Below, one piece after another: positions 1 to 12,756 of a DNA stretch of 52,510 nt. Origin of the DNA: Cyanobacteria bacterium FACHB-471 (GTDB lineage: Bacteria; Cyanobacteriota; Cyanobacteriia; Elainellales; Elainellaceae); the NCBI GenBank assembly GCA_014695345.1, contig JACJOC010000067.1:1-52510 (forward strand), in the 5' to 3' direction. Both the position numbers and the translations under genes were made by a program. The notes beneath the pieces are model-generated. The model worked only from the letters and a program-made list of their open reading frames with translations. It ran no database searches and was not told where the DNA came from. The stretch's first letter is position 1; each line of letters opens with the position of its first letter.

Positions 1-150
1 ACTGGTCGAATAGTTGACCATACAAATGGGTAGAGGGTGTCATGATTTTGGGCTGTTGTGTGGTAACTCTAGCCTCTCATGACTCTCTACCTTCTTCGCC
101 AATTCCCTTGTGTCTGCTGGGTTTCACCTACTTCTGTCAGGCAGCCAGGG
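1..150. mobile_element. Probable end of an insertion element at the left edge
   Basis: This flank replaces the 3' end of the ParA-type gene that starts at 1167. Homology to ParA stops abruptly after the codons for the Walker B-like Asp-Pro-Pro-Pro at about 150-160. The flank carries an imperfect inverted repeat, GTAGAGGGTGTCATGA at 30-45 against TCATGACTCTCTAC at 77-90. On the minus strand an ATG at 21-19 opens a frame that leaves the window after seven codons and could be the start of a transposase. No transposase motif is visible, so the assignment rests on the broken neighbour gene and the repeat. A simple deletion or rearrangement is the alternative. Confidence 0.35.
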
Positions 151-1167
151 GGGCGGGTCTATAAAAACGAAATCATATTCGTTGTTTCTTAATTTTTTAG
201 CTAAAACGCGATCGCTATCTACCATTTGTGTAAGTCTGCTTTCCATCCGGCTTAAACGAATATGAGATGGAACCACATCAAGTTCAATATCATTCCATCG
301 CTTTTGATAGATCACATCTTCCAGTTTAGTCTTAGGCTCAGTCAAAAGATGAGTAATATCTTTTCTGCCCGCCAACTCCACGTCGTTTAGAGGATCGATA
401 CCTAAACCCGTAGATAAGTTTGCCTGCGCGTCAATATCAACAAGTAAAACTTTTTTCCCAAGCTGGGTTAAGGTTGCAGCCAGGTTTATCGTCAATGTAG
501 TCTTACCAACGCCGCCTTTATTGTTAAAAACTGTGATAATCATAGATTTCTTTTGGTTGGAAGTAACTACAGTTGGTTGTTTTGTCGATTGTGAATTGCT
601 ATTCAAATCTGGCTTCTTCTTAAATAACCCAAACATATCTTCACTGGCAAATATTTTTGCAGTATAGGTGAGGAATTGGAAGTTAATATTATTCTGGCTT
701 TGCAAAACAGCATTGCCAACTTTTAGGCAGGTTTCTTTGCAAAGAGTTTTGTAGAACAAGCCAAACTGTGAAATCAACTCGGCTTGGGAATAATTAAATA
801 TCGTAATGATTTGTCCCTGATGATTGTACAGTAAGCGAAACGTATAGCCGTTTGTGAGCAGCCCTAAAGTTGCCCTAGATTGGCGCATGTAGTTGTTGAT
901 TTGCCAGACTGCTGAATCAATTCTTTTGTTTGCAGCTTTAACTTCGATGACTAAATAAGGTAGGCAGGTGGTAAATAACTCGTTTGGGTGAACTAGAAAA
1001 TCGAGTTTAGTTTTAGCAAATCTAGCTTGTGATCGCCAATCTGCATCACTATAACCAAGAATCTTTAGAAGTGGAATGACAACTTTAAGTTCAATATCTG
1101 ACTCACTGCTCTGAGGTGTTATTGCTTCAAGAAAGCTGAGTGAGCGTGAGTTAGATAGACCAGTCAT
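124..1167 (-). pseudogene. PD-(D/E)XK nuclease-like domain fused to ParA ATPase, 3' truncated
   Basis: The 347-residue product has two parts. Residues about 10-130 look like the N-terminal nuclease domain of type I restriction R subunits: Glu26, Asp56, the Glu75-Val-Lys77 pair after a hydrophobic strand, and a Gln89-Ile-Asn-Asn-Tyr motif. Residues 209-340 are a ParA/MinD-type ATPase with deviant Walker A KGGVGKTT (Lys217, Lys222), the DIDAQANLS motif and Asp-Pro-Pro-Pro of the B motif. ParA proteins continue for roughly another 100 residues here. This frame instead runs into an unrelated tail (WLPDRSR) and stops, so the gene is probably interrupted by the element at the left edge. Residues 180-208 are a polar linker. 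ParA ATPases position DNA or complexes on the nucleoid; the role of the nuclease-like part is unknown. No ParB or partner gene is visible on the right side. Confidence 0.75.
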
Positions 1168-5153: not shown

Positions 5154-6257
5154 ATGTCTCGCCACAGTTCATCACAAGCAGGAGCTAGATCACTTCGCGG
5201 CATTTGGTCGCTAGCTTTAATGGGTTTTGTCGTGTTGGCTGCTCCTCAGCAAGCTGCAACAGCTTCACCACAGCCTGCCAATTCAGCGATCGCTCAAGCA
5301 AACTCCAATCAATCCTCTCAAAATCGGTTGCCGCGAGCGGTTGCGCGACAGGTGCAGCGCGACTTGTCCCAACGTCTTGACGTTCCCCAACGCAACTTAG
5401 AAATTGTCAGCTTTGACCGACAAACCTGGCCCGATAGCTGCCTTGGATTAGCTGCCGCGAACGAACGCTGTGCCACAGCAACGGTCGAAGGTTGGCGAGT
5501 GGAACTGACTAACGGTCAACAAAACTGGGTTTATCGCACCGACATGACCGCGCAGGTGATTAGGTTGGAAACCAATCAGAACAACGATCTGCTGCCCGAA
5601 GCGCGCGATCGCCTGCTCCAAACGATTGCTCAAGAAGAGAGCGTGGCGATCAACAGCCTACGTATTACGGAAGCGCAGCCCAGAGTGTGGGATGGCTGCA
5701 TGGGAATCTATGCCCCTGACCAGGCTTGCACCAGGATTGCGATTTCGGGCTGGCAGGTAATCGTGGCTGGAGAAGATCAAAGCTGGGTTTATCACTTGAG
5801 CGAAGATGGCTCACGCATTGTGCAAAACTCCACAGCAAGCGGTAACTTGACCCCATCCTTTATTCCAACAGATGGAGGGACTCCTGAACCGATCGACAGC
5901 GCAGTTGTCTTTCGAGCCGTGACGTCCGGTGGTTTTGCAGGGATTGTCTCTGAAGCGATTTTAACGGCGGATGGCACGATTTATCGCCAGGTGTCGCAAC
6001 CAAGCTCTCCTCGCCCCTCTGACCCAGTGGTTGAAAGTCGCCTTTCACCAGAACAGGTAGAGCAGTTTCAGCAGCTTTTAGAAGACCAAAGATTCCCTAA
6101 TCTAAACGGGTTGAGATACATTACTGATGTTGCACTTGCCGATTATCCAACGACTACCTTCTACGCAATGGGTAGCCGAGTTGAATACATCGATTTGGAG
6201 CAAGATAATTTGCCTGAAGCGCTCCAGGAAGTAGTTCAAGCTTGGAACCAGTTCTAG
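5154..6257 (+). CDS. Secreted cyanobacterial protein with two internal repeats
   Basis: 367 residues. The N-terminus is a signal peptide: basic start, hydrophobic core about 20-30, AxA-type site near ATA37. Two homologous blocks of about 85 residues follow, roughly 58-140 and 147-228. Each has a helix with ARQVQRDLSQRLDV or ARDRLLQTIAQEESV, a Trp-Asp/Pro-x-Cys motif (TWPDSCLG, VWDGCMG), a second Cys (ERCATA, QACTRI), then GWRVEL/GWQVIV and WVYR/WVYH. The paired cysteines suggest one disulfide per block outside the cytoplasm. The C-terminal third (VVFRAVTSGGFAGIVSE onward) resembles a conserved cyanobacterial domain of unknown function. No enzyme motif is seen. Confidence 0.75.
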   Translation: MSRHSSSQAGARSLRGIWSLALMGFVVLAAPQQAATASPQPANSAIAQANSNQSSQNRLPRAVARQVQRDLSQRLDVPQRNLEIVSFDRQTWPDSCLGLAAANERCATATVEGWRVELTNGQQNWVYRTDMTAQVIRLETNQNNDLLPEARDRLLQTIAQEESVAINSLRITEAQPRVWDGCMGIYAPDQACTRIAISGWQVIVAGEDQSWVYHLSEDGSRIVQNSTASGNLTPSFIPTDGGTPEPIDSAVVFRAVTSGGFAGIVSEAILTADGTIYRQVSQPSSPRPSDPVVESRLSPEQVEQFQQLLEDQRFPNLNGLRYITDVALADYPTTTFYAMGSRVEYIDLEQDNLPEALQEVVQAWNQF

Positions 6258-6699
6258 GTTTGAATAAACCAGCAATACCAGGAACACCTGTTCCTATAAC
6301 TTGAACATTGCCTTCTATAAACGTTGGGGCTGTGTGAAGTGGAGAGAAGCGCCATCTGGCTAAAGATGTAATCTCCACTTGTCAGTGGGTTGGTAGAAAG
6401 CATTCCGATTTTGTAATGCTGGTTACATAACCTAGAAACTAAAAGGGAGGTAGGGTAAAGCTCTACCTCCCTTTTAGTTTCTAACCTGTATAGCTATAGC
6501 TATAGATGCCCAAAAGTATTGCTACATATACCTCTCTAGGTTAGTTGAGTTTTTTATGGAGGTGTTAAATTCAGTAGTTATAACGTTTGGTACAGGCACA
6601 CCAATCTTTCTCGTAATAACTTTTAAGTACGTTTAAGAATACTCCCTTAACTTGCCTTTTTGCTTTGCGTTAAATCATTTTTACAAAGGAAGAGCAACC
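6258..6699. other. Gene-free stretch with two hairpins
   Basis: The 440 bases between the secreted protein gene and the repeat-protein cluster contain no credible gene. AAGTGGAGA 6337-6345 can pair with TCTCCACTT 6372-6380. A strong 21-bp stem follows at 6433-6483 (listed separately), then a TATAGC tandem run near 6487-6506. The last 150 bases are AT-rich and probably hold the promoter of the cluster, but I cannot point to a convincing -35/-10 pair. Confidence 0.4.
6433..6483. terminator. Perfect 21-bp stem-loop, probable bidirectional terminator
   Basis: TAGAAACTAAAAGGGAGGTAG at 6433-6453 and its exact complement at 6463-6483 enclose a 9-nt loop. The stem contains A and T runs on both sides, so it could stop transcription from either direction. 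It separates the secreted protein gene from the cluster at 6700. The stem is unusually long and perfect for a plain terminator, so a mobile palindromic element is possible. Confidence 0.6.
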
Positions 6700-7623
6700 A
6701 TGATCAGCGATCAGAGACCCGTCGTTCAAGACGAAGAAAAGTTTTCAGTGGGTAGCACAAGCCAAGAGAATGCTCATCCTACCAATGTCCGACCGACTAA
6801 CGTTCAGCCGACCAAGGTCCAACCGACTAAAGTCCGAACTGCTGACGTAACTCCTGTAACTGTTCAGGTCGAGCAAAAACCTGATTTCGACCAAAACACA
6901 GCTGAAAAGAAACCTGTAGAGAAACGGGTTAATCCTTCTCTAACCCGATTAATCGTCGGAGGATTGGTTGGTGCAACGGTTGGTGCGCTCGCAGGGGCAT
7001 TAGCTAACCGGAAGACCTCTCAAGGTTTCAAACACGCAGTTCAAGGAGTAGACCGCGCCTCCAAAACTGTCGGTGAAGGTTTAAGCCATGCTGCTAGTGG
7101 TGTTGTTGATGCGACCAAGAGCGTTGGTGAAGGCTTAGGATACGCAATCAGTGGTTCAACTCAGGACGCAGTACAGGGCATCGCTGAGGGCACACAGCAA
7201 ATCAAAACGGCAGCAGCGGGGGTTGCACAAACAACCGCTAATCAGGTAGACCAGACTGTCAGGGATGTGACCAAAGGTGCACAGCAAGCTAAAACGGCAA
7301 CGTTAGAGGCTGTGCAAGCAACAACAGAGCGAGTAAGTCGTGCTGCTCAAGAAACATCAGAAACCCTTAAAGCGGCGGCTGAAGAGACTAGCAACTCTAA
7401 TCAACAGGTGATTGCTCAAGTACCGCAAACCGAAGCAATAGTACCTGTTCAATCTGATGTTGATATAGAACTCATGAATGCGTTGCAAGCGGATGAAGAT
7501 TTTCTTGCTCTGACAGAAGGAACCGGTCAAGGAGAGATTGAGCAAAAAATCCAAGAAAACACCGAAGCAGCTCTTCAAGAGGGTTTGTTTGCAGATGTTG
7601 AAATCAGTCACCCAAGCCCCTAG
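6700..7623 (+). CDS. Glycine-zipper, LEA-like repeat protein (307 aa)
   Basis: I chose the ATG at 6700 because AAAGGAAGAG lies just upstream; the upstream in-frame start at 6652 has no such site. The order is: a Pro-Thr-rich N-terminus with tandem pentapeptides (PTNVR, PTNVQ, PTKVQ, PTKVR; about residues 27-46); a glycine-zipper hydrophobic segment (LIVGGLVGATVGALAGALA, about 87-105); then about 130 residues of Ala/Thr/Gln-rich amphipathic helix in 11-residue-like periods (VGEGLSHAASGV, VGEGLGYAISGS), similar to LEA group 3 or apolipoprotein-like helices; and an acidic C-terminus. Such a layout suggests a membrane-inserted or membrane-lining protein with a desiccation-type helix. It shares the zipper and the repeats with the next gene, 9 bases downstream. 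No function is known. Confidence 0.7.
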   Translation: MISDQRPVVQDEEKFSVGSTSQENAHPTNVRPTNVQPTKVQPTKVRTADVTPVTVQVEQKPDFDQNTAEKKPVEKRVNPSLTRLIVGGLVGATVGALAGALANRKTSQGFKHAVQGVDRASKTVGEGLSHAASGVVDATKSVGEGLGYAISGSTQDAVQGIAEGTQQIKTAAAGVAQTTANQVDQTVRDVTKGAQQAKTATLEAVQATTERVSRAAQETSETLKAAAEETSNSNQQVIAQVPQTEAIVPVQSDVDIELMNALQADEDFLALTEGTGQGEIEQKIQENTEAALQEGLFADVEISHPSP

Positions 7624-7632
7624 AAGGAGAAA

Positions 7633-8217
7633 ATGATGGTCACGGACAGTAATGAAGCTCTAGCTGAATTGGATGCTGCTGAACTGGGTGATACTGAATT
7701 GGGTGATGTAGATACATCTATAGACTACATCGGCTCCGATGACATCTCAGATGGGTCAGGTCACGCCTTAACTCAAATTGCGATTGGTGCACTCGTTGGA
7801 GCCACCATTGGTGGAGTTGCCACTGCTTTGTCCAATCGGTCCATTGTCAACCGCATCAATCAGACCGTTCGGGGAGTTGGCTCCACCGTTAAAAGGGCTG
7901 CTAATAGCGTTGACGACGCGGTCAGAGGAGTGGGTGATGCAGTGCAAAGCGTTGCTACGGGCGTAAATGATACGGCCAAAGAGGTTAGTGACGTGGTTAG
8001 AGAGACAGCTGAAGGTATCGGCGGCACGGTGAAAGACACAATCAACACTGTGCAAAATACAGCCGAGAATGTCAACGACACTGTAAAAAGCACGGCTGAT
8101 GCGGTTCGCTGTACAACCGAGGAAGTAACCACATCCAATCAACGCGAAGCTAATGGGTCAGAAAATGACACTCTTTACAAACTAATCCCAGTTAACTCAA
8201 GTGAATCGGGCTCTTGA
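7633..8217 (+). CDS. Glycine-zipper, LEA-like repeat protein, paralogue (194 aa)
   Basis: 194 residues. AAGGAG lies four bases before the ATG, only 9 bases after the preceding stop, so the two are almost surely cotranscribed. It starts with acidic repeats (AELGDTELGD), followed by a glycine zipper (IAIGALVGATIGGVATALSN, about 51-70) and then tandem 11-residue units rich in Val, Asp, Thr: VGSTVKRAANS, VDDAVRGVGDA, VQSVATGVNDT, and so on to about residue 165. The protein is a paralogue of the upstream product and lacks its Pro-Thr region. The regular units explain the long shadow frames on the opposite strand. Confidence 0.75.
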   Translation: MMVTDSNEALAELDAAELGDTELGDVDTSIDYIGSDDISDGSGHALTQIAIGALVGATIGGVATALSNRSIVNRINQTVRGVGSTVKRAANSVDDAVRGVGDAVQSVATGVNDTAKEVSDVVRETAEGIGGTVKDTINTVQNTAENVNDTVKSTADAVRCTTEEVTTSNQREANGSENDTLYKLIPVNSSESGS

Positions 8218-8379
8218 AGCAATTTCCCCATTGAGTTGGGTTAATTGTGGGATGGGAAATGAGCAGCCTAAAGCGTGGGCTGCTCGTCCCTTCTACAGGT
8301 TCGTGGTTATAGCAGACGAGGTTCAGGGGGCTGGTTTCTGTTCTCTGTGTCGCCTTCACAATATTGGACTGGTGTAACT

Positions 8380-9249
8380 ATGCGTTGGATATCAGGATTC
8401 CTTAACCCCAAAAAGTCTCAGCCTTGTCAGCCACCAATTAACTCTCCAGCAGATCAAAGTTCAGATACAGTTCAAAATCCTAATACGATGCTACAGGTTG
8501 TAGTTGAAGAAACCGTAATGGCTGTTGCAAAATGGTTAGTGACGTTGGTCAACCGTAGTTTAGAAGCTAAGGCAGTTGCTCCAGTTGCCCCAGTCGCAGA
8601 AGCCCCAACGACCGCTGCTACTGTAGCTCAGAGCAATTCTGATGCCAGCTATACTGCTGCTTCCAATCCCTCTAGCGATTCTGACGTTGATCAAACGCGT
8701 ACGGTAGAAGAACTATTAGTAAAATTTAGCTGTTTAATCCAGCAGTCGCACGATCGCATTCAATCTACCACAACCTTAGAAAACCGCATCCGTGCAATTG
8801 AGACCTACTTGAGAAGGGACTATAAGTTAGAACAACAAGTTAAAGAGTTGAGCGAATCATTTGCCAATTTAGAGAATCGACTAGCTCAAGTTGAAAGCTT
8901 CGTTGAGCGAGTTGATGGGATTTCAACCGAAGAATTTCTAAAGATGGAGCAGCGTTTAGAGCAGCAAATTGAAACAGGAACTCAACCCATTGGTACTTTT
9001 GAAAATCGCCTTTCGCTGATCGAAAGCTCTATTGAGAGTGAAAACCTTACCCTTAATCAAATGGTAAAAGTAGAGCAAGATGTAATGGCCATCGAAAAAC
9101 GGATCGTTTCTCTAGAGAAATTGTTTACTCGAATGAGCCTGATCGTTCGGTATGTAGAAAATAACTACCGCTCGATCGCATCTTTGCAAAAGTACGTGAA
9201 GAACCTCGATCCTGCATCTATCCCTAATAAAAACGGTTCTCACAATTAA
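8380..9249 (+). CDS. Coiled-coil protein of the repeat-protein cluster
   Basis: 289 residues from the ATG at 8380 (MRWISGFLNPKK); a start at 8275 would add 35 residues without family character. Residues about 30-60 form an amphipathic segment (VVVEETVMAVAKWLVTLVNRSL), followed by an Ala/Pro/Ser linker. Residues about 110-275 are heptad-rich coiled coil with recurring ENR motifs (LENRIRAIE, LENRLAQVE, FENRLSLIE, IEKRIVSLEK). This could be a scaffold or tether. It lies 162 bases after the second glycine-zipper gene in the same direction. I do not recognise a family and know of no function. Confidence 0.65.
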   Translation: MRWISGFLNPKKSQPCQPPINSPADQSSDTVQNPNTMLQVVVEETVMAVAKWLVTLVNRSLEAKAVAPVAPVAEAPTTAATVAQSNSDASYTAASNPSSDSDVDQTRTVEELLVKFSCLIQQSHDRIQSTTTLENRIRAIETYLRRDYKLEQQVKELSESFANLENRLAQVESFVERVDGISTEEFLKMEQRLEQQIETGTQPIGTFENRLSLIESSIESENLTLNQMVKVEQDVMAIEKRIVSLEKLFTRMSLIVRYVENNYRSIASLQKYVKNLDPASIPNKNGSHN

Positions 9250-9345
9250 ACTCTCACAGGGTTAATATGGGAGAATTCAATTTATCCGTGGATGTGTTCT
9301 TCTTTTCGCCCTTCTAGTGCAGCTAACCCAAAAAGTTCATATTAC

Positions 9346-9373
9346 GCTTTAGGATAGGGGCTTTAGGATAGGG
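9346..9373. repeat. Tandem 14-mer, two copies
   Basis: GCTTTAGGATAGGG occurs twice without a gap (9346-9359 and 9360-9373), 25 bases before the permease start. The 14-mer is a multiple of seven and belongs with the heptanucleotide repeats seen elsewhere in the window. An effect on the promoter or leader of the following gene is possible. Confidence 0.8.
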
Positions 9374-9398
9374 ATTGTATGCTCTCCACTAAATTCCT

Positions 9399-10307
9399 TT
9401 GAACCGCAATCCTGATCATTCTGCATCTCCCAGCACTACAACTAAAACGGGTGCTTTGTATGCTATTTTTGCCTATTCATCCTGGGGGCTACTGCCCATT
9501 TATTGGAAGTTTTTTGGGCAGATTCCGGCTGTAGAAGTGCTTAGCCATCGCATCATTTGGTCAATGGTGTTTCTCACCGGGTTATTGCTGCTGCAACGAC
9601 GCAGAGCTGAATTTACTAAGATCTGGCGATCGCCCACTCATCTCTCCACTCTCTTTTTAACTGCCTCACTACTCACTTTTAATTGGGGACTTTACATCTA
9701 CGCCGTGAATGCCGATCGCGTCGTAGAAACCAGCTTAGGATACTTCATCAACCCGCTTGTGAACGTCCTGCTCGGATTTGTGTTTCTCAAAGAACAGTTA
9801 AACCGATGGCAAACCCTGGCTGTAGTTTTAGCAGGACTCGGAGTCGCGAACTTTATCTGGCAACTGGGAGAAGTTCCCTGGATTGCGCTAGTGTTGGCGT
9901 TTTCCTTTGCCTGCTACGGCTTGTTGCGAAAAGTGGTGCCTGTTGCGCCAATGGCCGGATTGGCAATGGAAACGTTACTCGTTACCCCGATCGCCCTTGC
10001 TGCCACTGGCTATTGGGCCGCGACAGGCACAGGACACTTTGGCACAAGTTGGGCAACCAGTTTGCTGTTTATTGGTGCAGGGGTAACAACTTCACTGCCA
10101 CTGCTGTGGTTTAACAATGCGGCTAAACGGTTGAGGCTTTCCACATTGGGATTCTTTCAATATCTAGCTCCCAGTTTGCAGCTTGTGTTAGCCCTGTGGC
10201 TCTACCGTGAACCGTTTACCTTAACTCACGCGATCACGTTTGGGCTGATTTGGACAGCCCTGATTTTGTATTCCACTTCATCTTTGATGAGCCAGCGATC
10301 GAGTTGA
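9399..10307 (+). CDS. rarD: RarD-type EamA/DMT-superfamily permease
   Basis: 302 residues with ten membrane helices in two EamA halves, the architecture of the drug/metabolite transporter superfamily. The first helix (GALYAIFAYSSWGLLPIYWKFF) and the VEVLSHRIIWSM segment are typical of RarD proteins, and SLGYFINPLVNVLLGFVFLKEQLNRWQ marks the end of the first half. RarD was first linked to chloramphenicol sensitivity, and the true substrate is not established. The only suitable start is TTG at 9399; an ATG at 9379 is out of frame. It ends 13 bases before the convergent cysH. Confidence 0.85.
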   Translation: MNRNPDHSASPSTTTKTGALYAIFAYSSWGLLPIYWKFFGQIPAVEVLSHRIIWSMVFLTGLLLLQRRRAEFTKIWRSPTHLSTLFLTASLLTFNWGLYIYAVNADRVVETSLGYFINPLVNVLLGFVFLKEQLNRWQTLAVVLAGLGVANFIWQLGEVPWIALVLAFSFACYGLLRKVVPVAPMAGLAMETLLVTPIALAATGYWAATGTGHFGTSWATSLLFIGAGVTTSLPLLWFNNAAKRLRLSTLGFFQYLAPSLQLVLALWLYREPFTLTHAITFGLIWTALILYSTSSLMSQRSS

Positions 10308-10320
10308 TTGCTGCAACGGC

Positions 10321-11079
10321 TTACAGCGAACTAGAGTCGAGGCTAGCTGATTCTCCCAAGCTTTGCGGTAAGTGAATTCCACATTCCTGCTTCAAGCCAT
10401 TAAAGCGGGTGTCGCGTTCGTCCTCATCTGTAGCGGTGAGGGGGCGGCTAGAGTGCCAATCGCCCACCGTGACATAGCCTTCATCAAACAGCGGATGATA
10501 GGGCAAGTCATAGGCTTGAAGGTAGTCATACACTTGCTTAGAACTCCACCGCAGAATCGGTAGCACCTTGTAAATGCTGCCCTGGAGGTTGACGAAATCC
10601 AGCGTTTTACGGTGATCGGTTTGGCTGCTGCGAAGCCCAGCCAGCCATGCGGTAACGTTTAACTCGCGCAGGGCTCGCTGCATCGGCTCGACTTTGCGGA
10701 GTTGGTCATAACGATTAAGCGACTCCACATCGTTTTGGTCCCACAGCCGACCATAAAGGGCTTCCATTCGGGCAGGGCTAAGGGAAGACTGATAGACCTT
10801 GAGGTTGAGCTTGAGGCGATCGCTCAACTGGTCTGCAAAGAGGTAAGTTTTAGTGGGCAAATAGCCTGTATCAATCCAGATCACCGGAATGTCAGGAACG
10901 ATGCATGTCACCATATGCAGCATTACAGCAGAGTGAATGCCAAAGCTCGTCGTCATTGCCAATCCGCTATCAAACGTATCAACCGCCCATTGCACAATCT
11001 GAACTGCGTCTGCTTCTGCAAACTGCTGATTGACTTCGTTCAGGTTGATTGCGGTTTGCCCCCATTTCAAGCTAGTCAT
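10321..11079 (-). CDS. cysH: Phosphoadenylyl-sulfate reductase
   Basis: 252 residues, the usual length for CysH. It reduces PAPS to sulfite with thioredoxin in assimilatory sulfate reduction. The PP-loop-type nucleotide site lies at about residues 41-50 ([13 protein letters not shown]), followed by [13 protein letters not shown], the [13 protein letters not shown] segment, and the C-terminal ECGIH motif whose cysteine attacks the substrate. The extra cysteine pairs that hold an iron-sulfur cluster in APS reductases are absent, so PAPS is the more likely substrate. No other sulfur gene lies next to it. The start at 11079 is directly followed by the family-like MTSLKW. Confidence 0.9.
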
Positions 11080-11762: not shown

Positions 11763-11871
11763 ACAGGCGTGTTCTCGAAAATCCCTCAAATCTGAGCCTG
11801 AGTTTCTGGAACTATCTGACCCTGGGGTGTATCCCTACGGGTTCTCAGAAGCAGTTCTATCAAGAAGCATC

Positions 11872-12756
11872 ATGCATCAAGCTAGAAAGATTCTGTCTAG
11901 AAAATGGCGATCGCTCCTCCTGCTTGCTCTAGCGAGCCTGCTTGCCCTCCTGATGGGAGGACACCTTAACGGCAATCAGGCTGCCTTCGCAGGGGTGTCA
12001 GGAGTGCAGGTAGAAGAAGTGGCGATCGCCCAGGTTGATCTATCACAACCCTTTGAGCAGCTTGGGATAGAAGGTTCTGTGCTGCTCTACGACCAGAACG
12101 CAAATCAATTCTATGAACACAATCCCACCCGCAACACAACAGCCTTTTTCCCTTTGTCCACGTTCAAGATTTTGAATGCGCTCGTCTCTTTGGAGACGGG
12201 TGTAATCCGCGATGACGTAACCGTTCTGACCTGGGACGGGATCGAGCGTGAATTTCCAAGTTGGAACCGCGACACCAATCTCCGCCAAGGGTTCAAAGAT
12301 TCAACCATCTGGTTTTATCAAGTCCTGGCTCGCAAAGTTGGACATGAGCGAATGCAGGATTTTGTGAATCAGGTTGAGTATGGCAATCGCGACATCGGAA
12401 CAGTCGAAGCGATCGATCGATTTTGGTTAGAAGGTCCGCTGCGAGTCACCCCCCATCAGCAAATAGAGTTTTTGCAAAAACTCTATCGAAACGAGTTGCC
12501 TTTCTCCCAACGCACTATTGATGTGGTCAAAGACATCATGGTAGTTGAGCGCACTCCGGACTATGTACTGCGCGGCAAAACGGGCTTGGACACCATCACC
12601 ACGGGCTGGCCAAAACTGGGCTGGTTTGTTGGTTATTTAGAACAGAACGATAACGTCTACTTCTTTGCGACCAACATCGCCACGCAAGACGAAGATGACT
12701 TTCCCGCCCGCATCGAAGTGACGCGGCGCAGTCTTAAAGCGTTAGGGTTGTTTTGA
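11872..12756 (+). CDS. Class D beta-lactamase-like serine hydrolase
   Basis: 294 residues from the ATG at 11872; a frame open from 11827 would add 15 residues upstream of the signal peptide. The signal sequence (RKWRSLLLLALASLLALLMGG) ends near AFAG. The active-site motifs of class D enzymes are present: Ser96-Thr-Phe-Lys99, Tyr170-Gly-Asn, Lys236-Thr-Gly and Trp251-Phe-Val-Gly. The second motif is Ser144-Thr-Ile, where most class D enzymes have Ser-x-Val. The enzyme should act in the periplasm, either hydrolysing beta-lactams or as a penicillin-binding relative; activity is not proven. It has no regulatory or mobile neighbour, so it looks like a chromosomal house gene. Confidence 0.85.
   Translation: MHQARKILSRKWRSLLLLALASLLALLMGGHLNGNQAAFAGVSGVQVEEVAIAQVDLSQPFEQLGIEGSVLLYDQNANQFYEHNPTRNTTAFFPLSTFKILNALVSLETGVIRDDVTVLTWDGIEREFPSWNRDTNLRQGFKDSTIWFYQVLARKVGHERMQDFVNQVEYGNRDIGTVEAIDRFWLEGPLRVTPHQQIEFLQKLYRNELPFSQRTIDVVKDIMVVERTPDYVLRGKTGLDTITTGWPKLGWFVGYLEQNDNVYFFATNIATQDEDDFPARIEVTRRSLKALGLF

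Follow-up and report, generated by a model that had tools for sequence, protein, structure and literature searches.

Three adjacent genes of Cyanobacteria bacterium FACHB-471 form a stand-alone module that recurs in scattered members of the Cyanobacteriia. They lie at 6700-9249 on the forward strand of the window, by which we mean the whole stretch of DNA analysed (52,510 nucleotides, positions 1 to 52,510 of contig JACJOC010000067.1, assembly GCA_014695345.1). The reading that we favour, tentatively and on grounds of sequence, is that anchored amphipathic helices coat a membrane or some other lipid surface and that a coiled-coil protein serves as an accessory scaffold. All three open reading frames (ORFs) are intact. 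Gene 1 (6700-7623, + strand, 307 aa from the ATG at 6700) is supported by its homologues, helix period and composition, and encodes a disordered repeat-bearing tail, a glycine-zipper segment, a long amphipathic helix of 11/3 type and an acidic C-terminal tail. Gene 2 (7633-8217, + strand, 194 aa) encodes an acidic tail, a glycine zipper, a long amphipathic helix and a conserved C-terminal motif, and gene 3 (8380-9249, + strand, 289 aa from the ATG at 8380) a hydrophobic helix followed by a long coiled coil; both are supported by homologues and by structure models.

Conservation of the module

Profiles of gene 2 and gene 3 were searched in 388 Cyanobacteriia genomes, with matches reported at E<=1e-4. 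The gene 2 profile matched 35 of the 388 genomes, 20 of them strongly (E<=1e-39), and in each of these 20 gene 1 lies directly upstream on the same strand. The distribution of the module is thus patchy (20/388 genomes). Seven of the 15 weaker gene 2 matches were inspected, leaving aside G157, G161, G250, G251, G253, G290, G314 and G321. Six are either short fragments or distant relatives that occur as single genes (L049, L051, L055, L131, L132, L133), and the seventh (G152, locus L135) is a true gene 1; at this locus a transposase-like stretch separates gene 1 from gene 2, and the latter is broken by the contig end. The gene 3 profile matched 18 of the 388 genomes, 13 of which hold the three-gene module. 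The remaining five matches are weak (G003, G042, G055, G095, G219; E 1e-14 to 3e-5), and genes 1 and 2 were found beside none of the four that were examined (G095 not among them).

Adding Cyanobacteria bacterium Co-bin13 (L056) and Nodosilinea sp. WJT8-NPBG4 (L057) to the 20 loci of the class sample gives a set of 22 loci. The first-pass annotation, made from the letters of this DNA, had proposed to look for the three genes together in other cyanobacteria, and they do occur together: gene 2 follows gene 1 on the same strand in all 22 loci, and gene 3 lies downstream in 15. In the window the gap between genes 1 and 2 is 9 bases. In L057 and the loci of genus g95 other than L087 (L088, L089, L090) the start of gene 2 falls within the stop of gene 1, an arrangement that, from the sequence, looks like that of translational coupling.

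Further named carriers are FACHB-502, Leptolyngbya sp. FACHB-60, CCP2, Phormidium tenue FACHB-886, Myxacorys californica WJT36-NPBG1 and Nodosilinea sp. FACHB-131. Single-sequence searches of 79 relatives, with weak matches counted, found gene 3 in seven and gene 2 in 16, and a search of genome contigs with the gene 3 alignment returned eight loci. The single gene 2 protein gave 62 pattern matches in genome contigs, with no relative among them, and tblastn with genes 2 and 3 found no match in 72,556 plasmid records. Pairwise distances are strongly correlated between the three proteins (r 0.924, 0.939 and 0.962; Mantel P 0.001, species history not removed), which is the expectation for joint inheritance, shared species history contributing to it.

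The surroundings of the module were compared over the three nearest genes of at least 100 aa on each side of the 22 loci. No neighbour family occurs in more than five loci, and the sets of four and five are each confined to one genus (L127-L130; L057 and L087-L090). A few neighbour pairs and one trio cross genera (e.g. L056/L086/L091, L048/L085, L045/L085, L045/L126, L048/L126), mostly from what look like large families. Because the neighbours differ between genera, we regard the three-gene unit as a stand-alone module.

Glycine zippers and amphipathic helices of genes 1 and 2

As the first-pass annotation had concluded, gene 2 is a paralogue of gene 1 (tblastn E 1.7e-7, with 35% identity across residues 79-216). 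Each couples a hydrophobic segment of GxxxG type to a weakly amphipathic helix of about 100 residues or more. The glycine-zipper segment of gene 1 is encoded at 6949-7005 (+ strand, residues 84-102, including GGLVGATVG) and that of gene 2 at 7777-7833 (+ strand, residues 49-67, including GALVGATIG, within a helix predicted at 45-65). The Kyte-Doolittle means of these glycine-rich 19-mers are 2.03 and 1.83, and the median of the maximal 19-residue hydrophobicity is 1.80 in 22 gene 1 homologues and 1.95 in 21 gene 2 homologues, which is of transmembrane-like strength. A GxxxGxxx[GAS] run is present in 22 of 22 homologues of each gene, in line with the earlier claim of a glycine-zipper segment in both.

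The amphipathic helix of gene 1 (7015-7374, + strand, about residues 106-225) has a period of 98.5 degrees in the protein from the window, and the best period in the homologues is 98.2 +/- 0.3 degrees (23/23). Eleven residues in three turns correspond to 98.18 degrees, so the 11-residue spacing claimed for these helices is exact for gene 1. The helix of gene 2 (7837-8148, + strand, residues 69-172) has a best period of 99.9 +/- 0.4 degrees in 21 of 21 homologues (the gene 2 of L056 not counted), closer to 18/5 (7+11), and so fits that spacing approximately. The helical moment is above that expected from composition, since none of 200 shuffles reached the observed value in any of the 23 gene 1 or 21 gene 2 homologues. 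Both helices are weakly hydrophobic and nearly free of proline and cysteine, and the apolar face of gene 2 consists of V17, T9, I3 and A3 and nothing else. An AlphaFold model built on nine sequences, of low confidence (mean pLDDT 57), gives gene 2 two helices, 45-65 and a single continuous 69-172, with floppy ends.

The N-terminal tails of genes 1 and 2 are variable and of low complexity, with tandem repeats that differ in kind between species. The tandem pentapeptides noted earlier in gene 1 are real (6781-6835, + strand, 15-nt period, 3.7 copies), but their sequence is not kept in the homologues. The C-terminus of gene 2 carries the motif TLYKLIPV (8170-8193, + strand), and a form of it, [TM][LT]Y[KRI]L[VI]P[VLI], lies inside the last 20 residues in 22 of 22 homologues, including those from loci that lack gene 3. 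A degenerate DNA pattern for this tail (at most one mismatch) gave a single match in nine carrier genomes and no match in three (12 searched), always in gene 2. The tail may dock a partner other than gene 3.

The gene 3 protein

The start of gene 3 is placed at 8380 and not at the GTG of a longer ORF from 8275, which is not supported, because the methionine at 8380 aligns with the first methionine in 6 of 6 and 9 of 9 compared sequences. The 162-base gap between genes 2 and 3 contains a small 8-nt inverted repeat, found by inverted-repeat search (8261-8285), which may separate the expression of gene 3. The hydrophobic helix (8482-8574, + strand, residues 35-65) includes a conserved VVEETxMAxAKWL stretch and precedes the coiled-coil region (8686-9204, + strand, residues 103-275). 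The AlphaFold model, also built on nine sequences and of low confidence (mean pLDDT 61), has helices at 35-65, 103-178 and 183-275. The coiled coil proposed in the first-pass annotation is borne out by the period of this region, which is 102.5-107.5 degrees in 14 homologues (L085, whose motif falls outside the search pattern, was not counted) and is heptad-like; between 0 and 5 of 200 shuffles reach it. Two distant relatives of gene 3 stand alone elsewhere (L053, 9548-10081, and L093, 8803-9363), with a hydrophobic helix of W-x2-KL-x-QQG type ahead of the coil.

Relation to known families

Scans of the three proteins against Pfam and NCBIfam passed no cut-off. The best Pfam match of gene 2 is Apolipophorin III (PF07464; 28.4 of 36.3 bits), which is matched below threshold by all seven gene 2 members (E<=0.01, best 2.6e-8), and the first two places in the list of matches in the Protein Data Bank (PDB) are taken by structures of apolipophorin III (E 0.0013 and 0.0017). 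Also below their cut-offs, gene 2 scores against YtxH (PF12732; 17.8 of 37.5 bits) and Perilipin (PF03036; 10.6 of 33 bits; one of seven gene 2 members at E<=0.01), and gene 1 against DUF883_C (10.8 of 27 bits).

The defining layout of YtxH, a hydrophobic segment rich in glycine with a long helix after it, is found in genes 1 and 2, the gene 2 helix at 69-172 being a low-confidence prediction. YtxH-like proteins and the DUF883/ElaB/YqjD group share with the module a glycine-rich hydrophobic segment and a long polar or amphipathic helix, with no catalytic domain. The module differs from them in its tandem paralogues, in the exact 11/3 or 18/5 stripe of its helices, in its conserved C-terminal motif, and in the position of the zipper, which lies in the first third to half of the protein. 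The tail anchor at the C-terminus of DUF883/ElaB/YqjD is accordingly not what we see, the hydrophobic segment being at 84-102 of 307 residues in gene 1 and 49-67 of 194 in gene 2.

Other cyanobacterial zipper-helix proteins appear as distant homologues by the gene 2 profile, either as single genes (L131-L134, L049) or, as read from sequence, with a TPR-like C-terminus (L050, L052, L055 and, in the FACHB-471 genome itself, L054). They too have glycine-rich hydrophobic segments and long repeats. In contrast to the module they are single genes with a longer glycine-rich part and more charged repeats of ETVEEVKPS type, and no C-terminal motif was seen in them. L054 (8523-9737, - strand, contig C94) is a further glycine-zipper protein with apparent TPR repeats at its end.

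The helices of genes 1 and 2 resemble perilipins, alpha-synuclein and exchangeable apolipoproteins in period, length, low aromatic content, low moment and a V/T/A-rich apolar face. The medians for moment and for hydrophobic, aromatic and charged fractions are 0.322, 0.38, 0.025 and 0.17 in gene 1 and 0.415, 0.34, 0 and 0.21 in gene 2. The corresponding values in Table 1 of PMC5889406 are 0.30, 0.47, 0.02 and 0.24 for alpha-synuclein, 0.35, 0.37, 0.01 and 0.23 for Plin3, 0.257, 0.35, 0.002 and 0.15 for Plin4, and 0.39, 0.40, 0.065 and 0.35 for ApoA-I. Set against this table, both helices group with alpha-synuclein, Plin3 and Plin4 in moment, aromatics and charge, and the sequence features of a perilipin/synuclein-type helix (11/3 stripe, few aromatics, low moment) are present. 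Unlike the module proteins, these are soluble exchangeable animal proteins without a zipper anchor, and the module proteins lack the PAT domain of perilipins. The likeness is therefore probably one of chemistry, and convergent.

No described system matching the module (glycine zipper with an LEA-like, 11-residue or apolipoprotein-like amphipathic helix in cyanobacteria) was found in the openly accessible literature, which is not proof of absence. The earlier statement that nothing like it has been described holds in that no curated family scores above cut-off, but the combination of zipper and amphipathic helix is of a known kind, familiar from YtxH-like and ElaB-like proteins. What is new is that a helix of 11/3 type is paired with one of 18/5 type, and that a conserved tail and a coiled-coil partner accompany them.

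Possible function

If the favoured reading holds, genes 1 to 3 would constitute a small independent module whose products coat a membrane or some other lipid surface. The gene 1 and gene 2 proteins would each insert by their short glycine zipper, by which they could pack side by side, and their long weakly hydrophobic helix would lie flat on the lipid in the manner of alpha-synuclein, perilipins and exchangeable apolipoproteins. According to PMC5889406, helices of the synuclein/perilipin sort become folded when they meet lipid, to which they are bound by many weak contacts, and Plin4 is described in PMC8064757 as forming a stable layer on droplets though it is without bulky residues. By analogy, many weak V/T/A contacts could bind a curved or stressed membrane and may prevent it from fusing or leaking. 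In the two thirds of loci that have gene 3, its hydrophobic helix and coiled coil might link coat units together or to another structure, and the TLYKLVPV tail of gene 2 would dock its separate partner. The helix chemistry suggests a helix lying on lipid, short of proof, and to that extent it agrees with the membrane-lining design put forward in the first-pass annotation.

Several observations weigh against this reading. Gene 3 is absent from seven of the 22 loci (L048, L125-L130), and the AlphaFold models of genes 2 and 3 are both of low confidence. The segment of gene 3 that had been described as amphipathic is better named a hydrophobic helix, as its moment is not above that of shuffles (P 0.14), and its Kyte-Doolittle value of 1.36 (median 1.34) is under the usual transmembrane strength. 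The matches to apolipoproteins and YtxH are weak, and low-complexity helices tend to draw matches of this kind; the genes also score against coiled coils, tape-measure proteins and a baculovirus envelope protein. The comparison with the table of PMC5889406 is approximate, because our moments come from our own script (Fauchere-Pliska scale, 33-residue windows) and not from Heliquest.

Of the alternatives, the one that survives best, although we think it somewhat unlikely, is a stress protectant of LEA or YtxH/ElaB type that has no fold in water, takes one up when dried or when membranes are damaged, shields membranes and is made under stress. It would account for the 11/3 period, the weak hydrophobicity and the near-absence of proline and cysteine, and YtxH is matched below threshold by five of seven gene 2 members (E<=0.01, best 1.4e-6). 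ElaB offers a precedent, being, according to PMC6389858, a tail-anchored inner-membrane protein of E. coli under RpoS and OxyR control that preserves membranes under peroxide. Group 3 LEA proteins (LEA_4, PF02987), to which the helices had been likened, share the 11-residue spacing with gene 1, the one respect in which the LEA label holds; the module proteins differ from them in having an apparent membrane segment, and neither gene 1 nor gene 2 has an LEA_4 match at E<=1. A search for LEA_4 in the relatives gave a match in 0 of 79, but its control gave one in 0 of 14, so that this result carries no weight. No stress promoter was identified, sigma-70 promoters (1 found, 4.0 expected) and terminators (1 found, 3.6 expected) being at or below chance in the scans.

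We consider it distinctly less probable that the gene 1 and gene 2 helices associate with one another and with the heptad coil of gene 3 into a straight or right-handed coiled coil, giving a filament or bundle away from lipid. Periods of 98-100 degrees are compatible with coiled coils of hendecad or 18-residue type, the PDB list includes weak matches to designed coiled coils, hendecad and antiparallel (8qaf, E 0.015; 9gf4, E 0.13), and gene 3 is itself heptad-like. However, the V/T/A apolar faces with almost no Leu, Ile or Phe would make a weak core, and the gene 2 model, a low-confidence monomer, shows no bundle.

A role as accessory proteins of gas vesicles (GvpT/GvpP-like) or polyhydroxyalkanoate (PHA) granules (phasin-like) is very unlikely. 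Gene 2 has sub-threshold matches to GvpT (E 0.0013, 19.2 of 80 bits) and to the phasin TIGR01985 (E 8.8e-4, 19.7 of 99.7 bits), and the GvpA family occurs in 17 of 20 carrier genomes compared with 179 of 388 across the class. No tie beyond phylogeny could be demonstrated from this excess, since within family f1 GvpA is present in five of six carriers and in 24 of 30 non-carriers. Moreover, the near-complete carriers G019, G142 and G374 hold the module without GvpA, a class III PHA synthase exceeds its cut-off in three of the 20 carriers, and no gvp annotation was noticed beside the module, whose flanks were not scanned with gvp models. Gas vesicles and PHA synthase are thus not required for carriage of the module. 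That the genes are tape-measure fragments left by a phage or injection machine is hardly credible, as the PHROG tape-measure matches to the helices of gene 1 (best 7.6e-7) and gene 2 (best 1.5e-5) span about 100-150 residues of proteins longer than 1000, and the module consists of complete ORFs with their own conserved ends, in an order kept in 22 loci without common phage neighbours.

Flanking regions

Upstream of gene 1 lies a hairpin with a perfect 21-nt inverted repeat (6433-6483, arms 100% complementary), which had been thought to isolate the cluster. The perfect arms are real, but the hairpin is not specific to this place. BLAST of 6420-6500 against the genome itself gave 20 rows, the hairpin and its own reverse included, and folding of six other related places produced a long hairpin (about 20 pairs or more) in five cases and a short one in the sixth. 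It is one copy of a dispersed family, lies outside the module, and is probably a bidirectional terminator or an intergenic palindrome. Long perfect hairpins of this AAAAGGGAGG...CCTCCCTTTT kind are found at 6433-6483 and at L138-L143, several of them followed by a second small conserved palindrome, AACCTGTATAGCTATAGCTATA.

A spaced element, CCATAGTTT-N20-TTGRTAGGGT, occurs upstream of gene 1, some 165-215 bases away (at about -214 to -166), in seven of 23 loci (L056, L057, L086-L090; at most one mismatch each). In four of six searched genomes, the four of f13, it is single, free of mismatches and at the module; of the other two, G013 has one unrelated match with three mismatches and G000 none, and the reversed control gave one match. 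By sequence it appears to be a local conserved 5' region rather than a demonstrable regulon signal. A general motif common to the 5' regions of the 23 loci was not found, the top 10-mer occurring in four of a counted subset in which the genus g95 loci were cut to one and four other loci were omitted. In an Rfam scan of 5800-10400 nothing reached the gathering score.

The module is preceded by a gene of 367 aa (5154-6257) and followed by a RarD-type transporter (NCBIfam rarD, 222 bits against a cut-off of 130). An exact 14-bp tandem duplication, GCTTTAGGATAGGG, lies between gene 3 and the rarD-like gene (9346-9373). Elsewhere in the window, an ORF at 124-1167 (- strand) apparently fuses a nuclease-like N-terminal half, in the style of a type I restriction R subunit, to a ParA/MinD-type ATPase, to judge by reading of the sequence. 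At 11827-12756 (+ strand) is a secreted protein with STFK and KTG motifs, presumably similar to a class D beta-lactamase or penicillin-binding protein.

Implications

Even if their function proves ordinary, the three genes make up a conserved family that lacks annotation and has named carriers and conserved motifs. The organisms that carry it have abundant internal membranes and lipid bodies. It is tempting to speculate, though we regard this more specific proposal as unlikely, that the module is a bacterial counterpart of the lipid coating by perilipins and synuclein, in which zipper-anchored 11/3 (gene 1) and 18/5 (gene 2) helices and a coiled-coil partner would assemble as an orderly layer lining a membrane, lipid droplet or plastoglobule-like body of cyanobacteria, and the TLYKLVPV tail would recruit a client. 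Should the coat reading prove true, bacteria would also have reached the long, weakly hydrophobic 11/3 helix of the synuclein/perilipin type, here in an anchored and operon-organised form, and the module would offer a small genetic system for membrane coating that can be tested by simple deletion.

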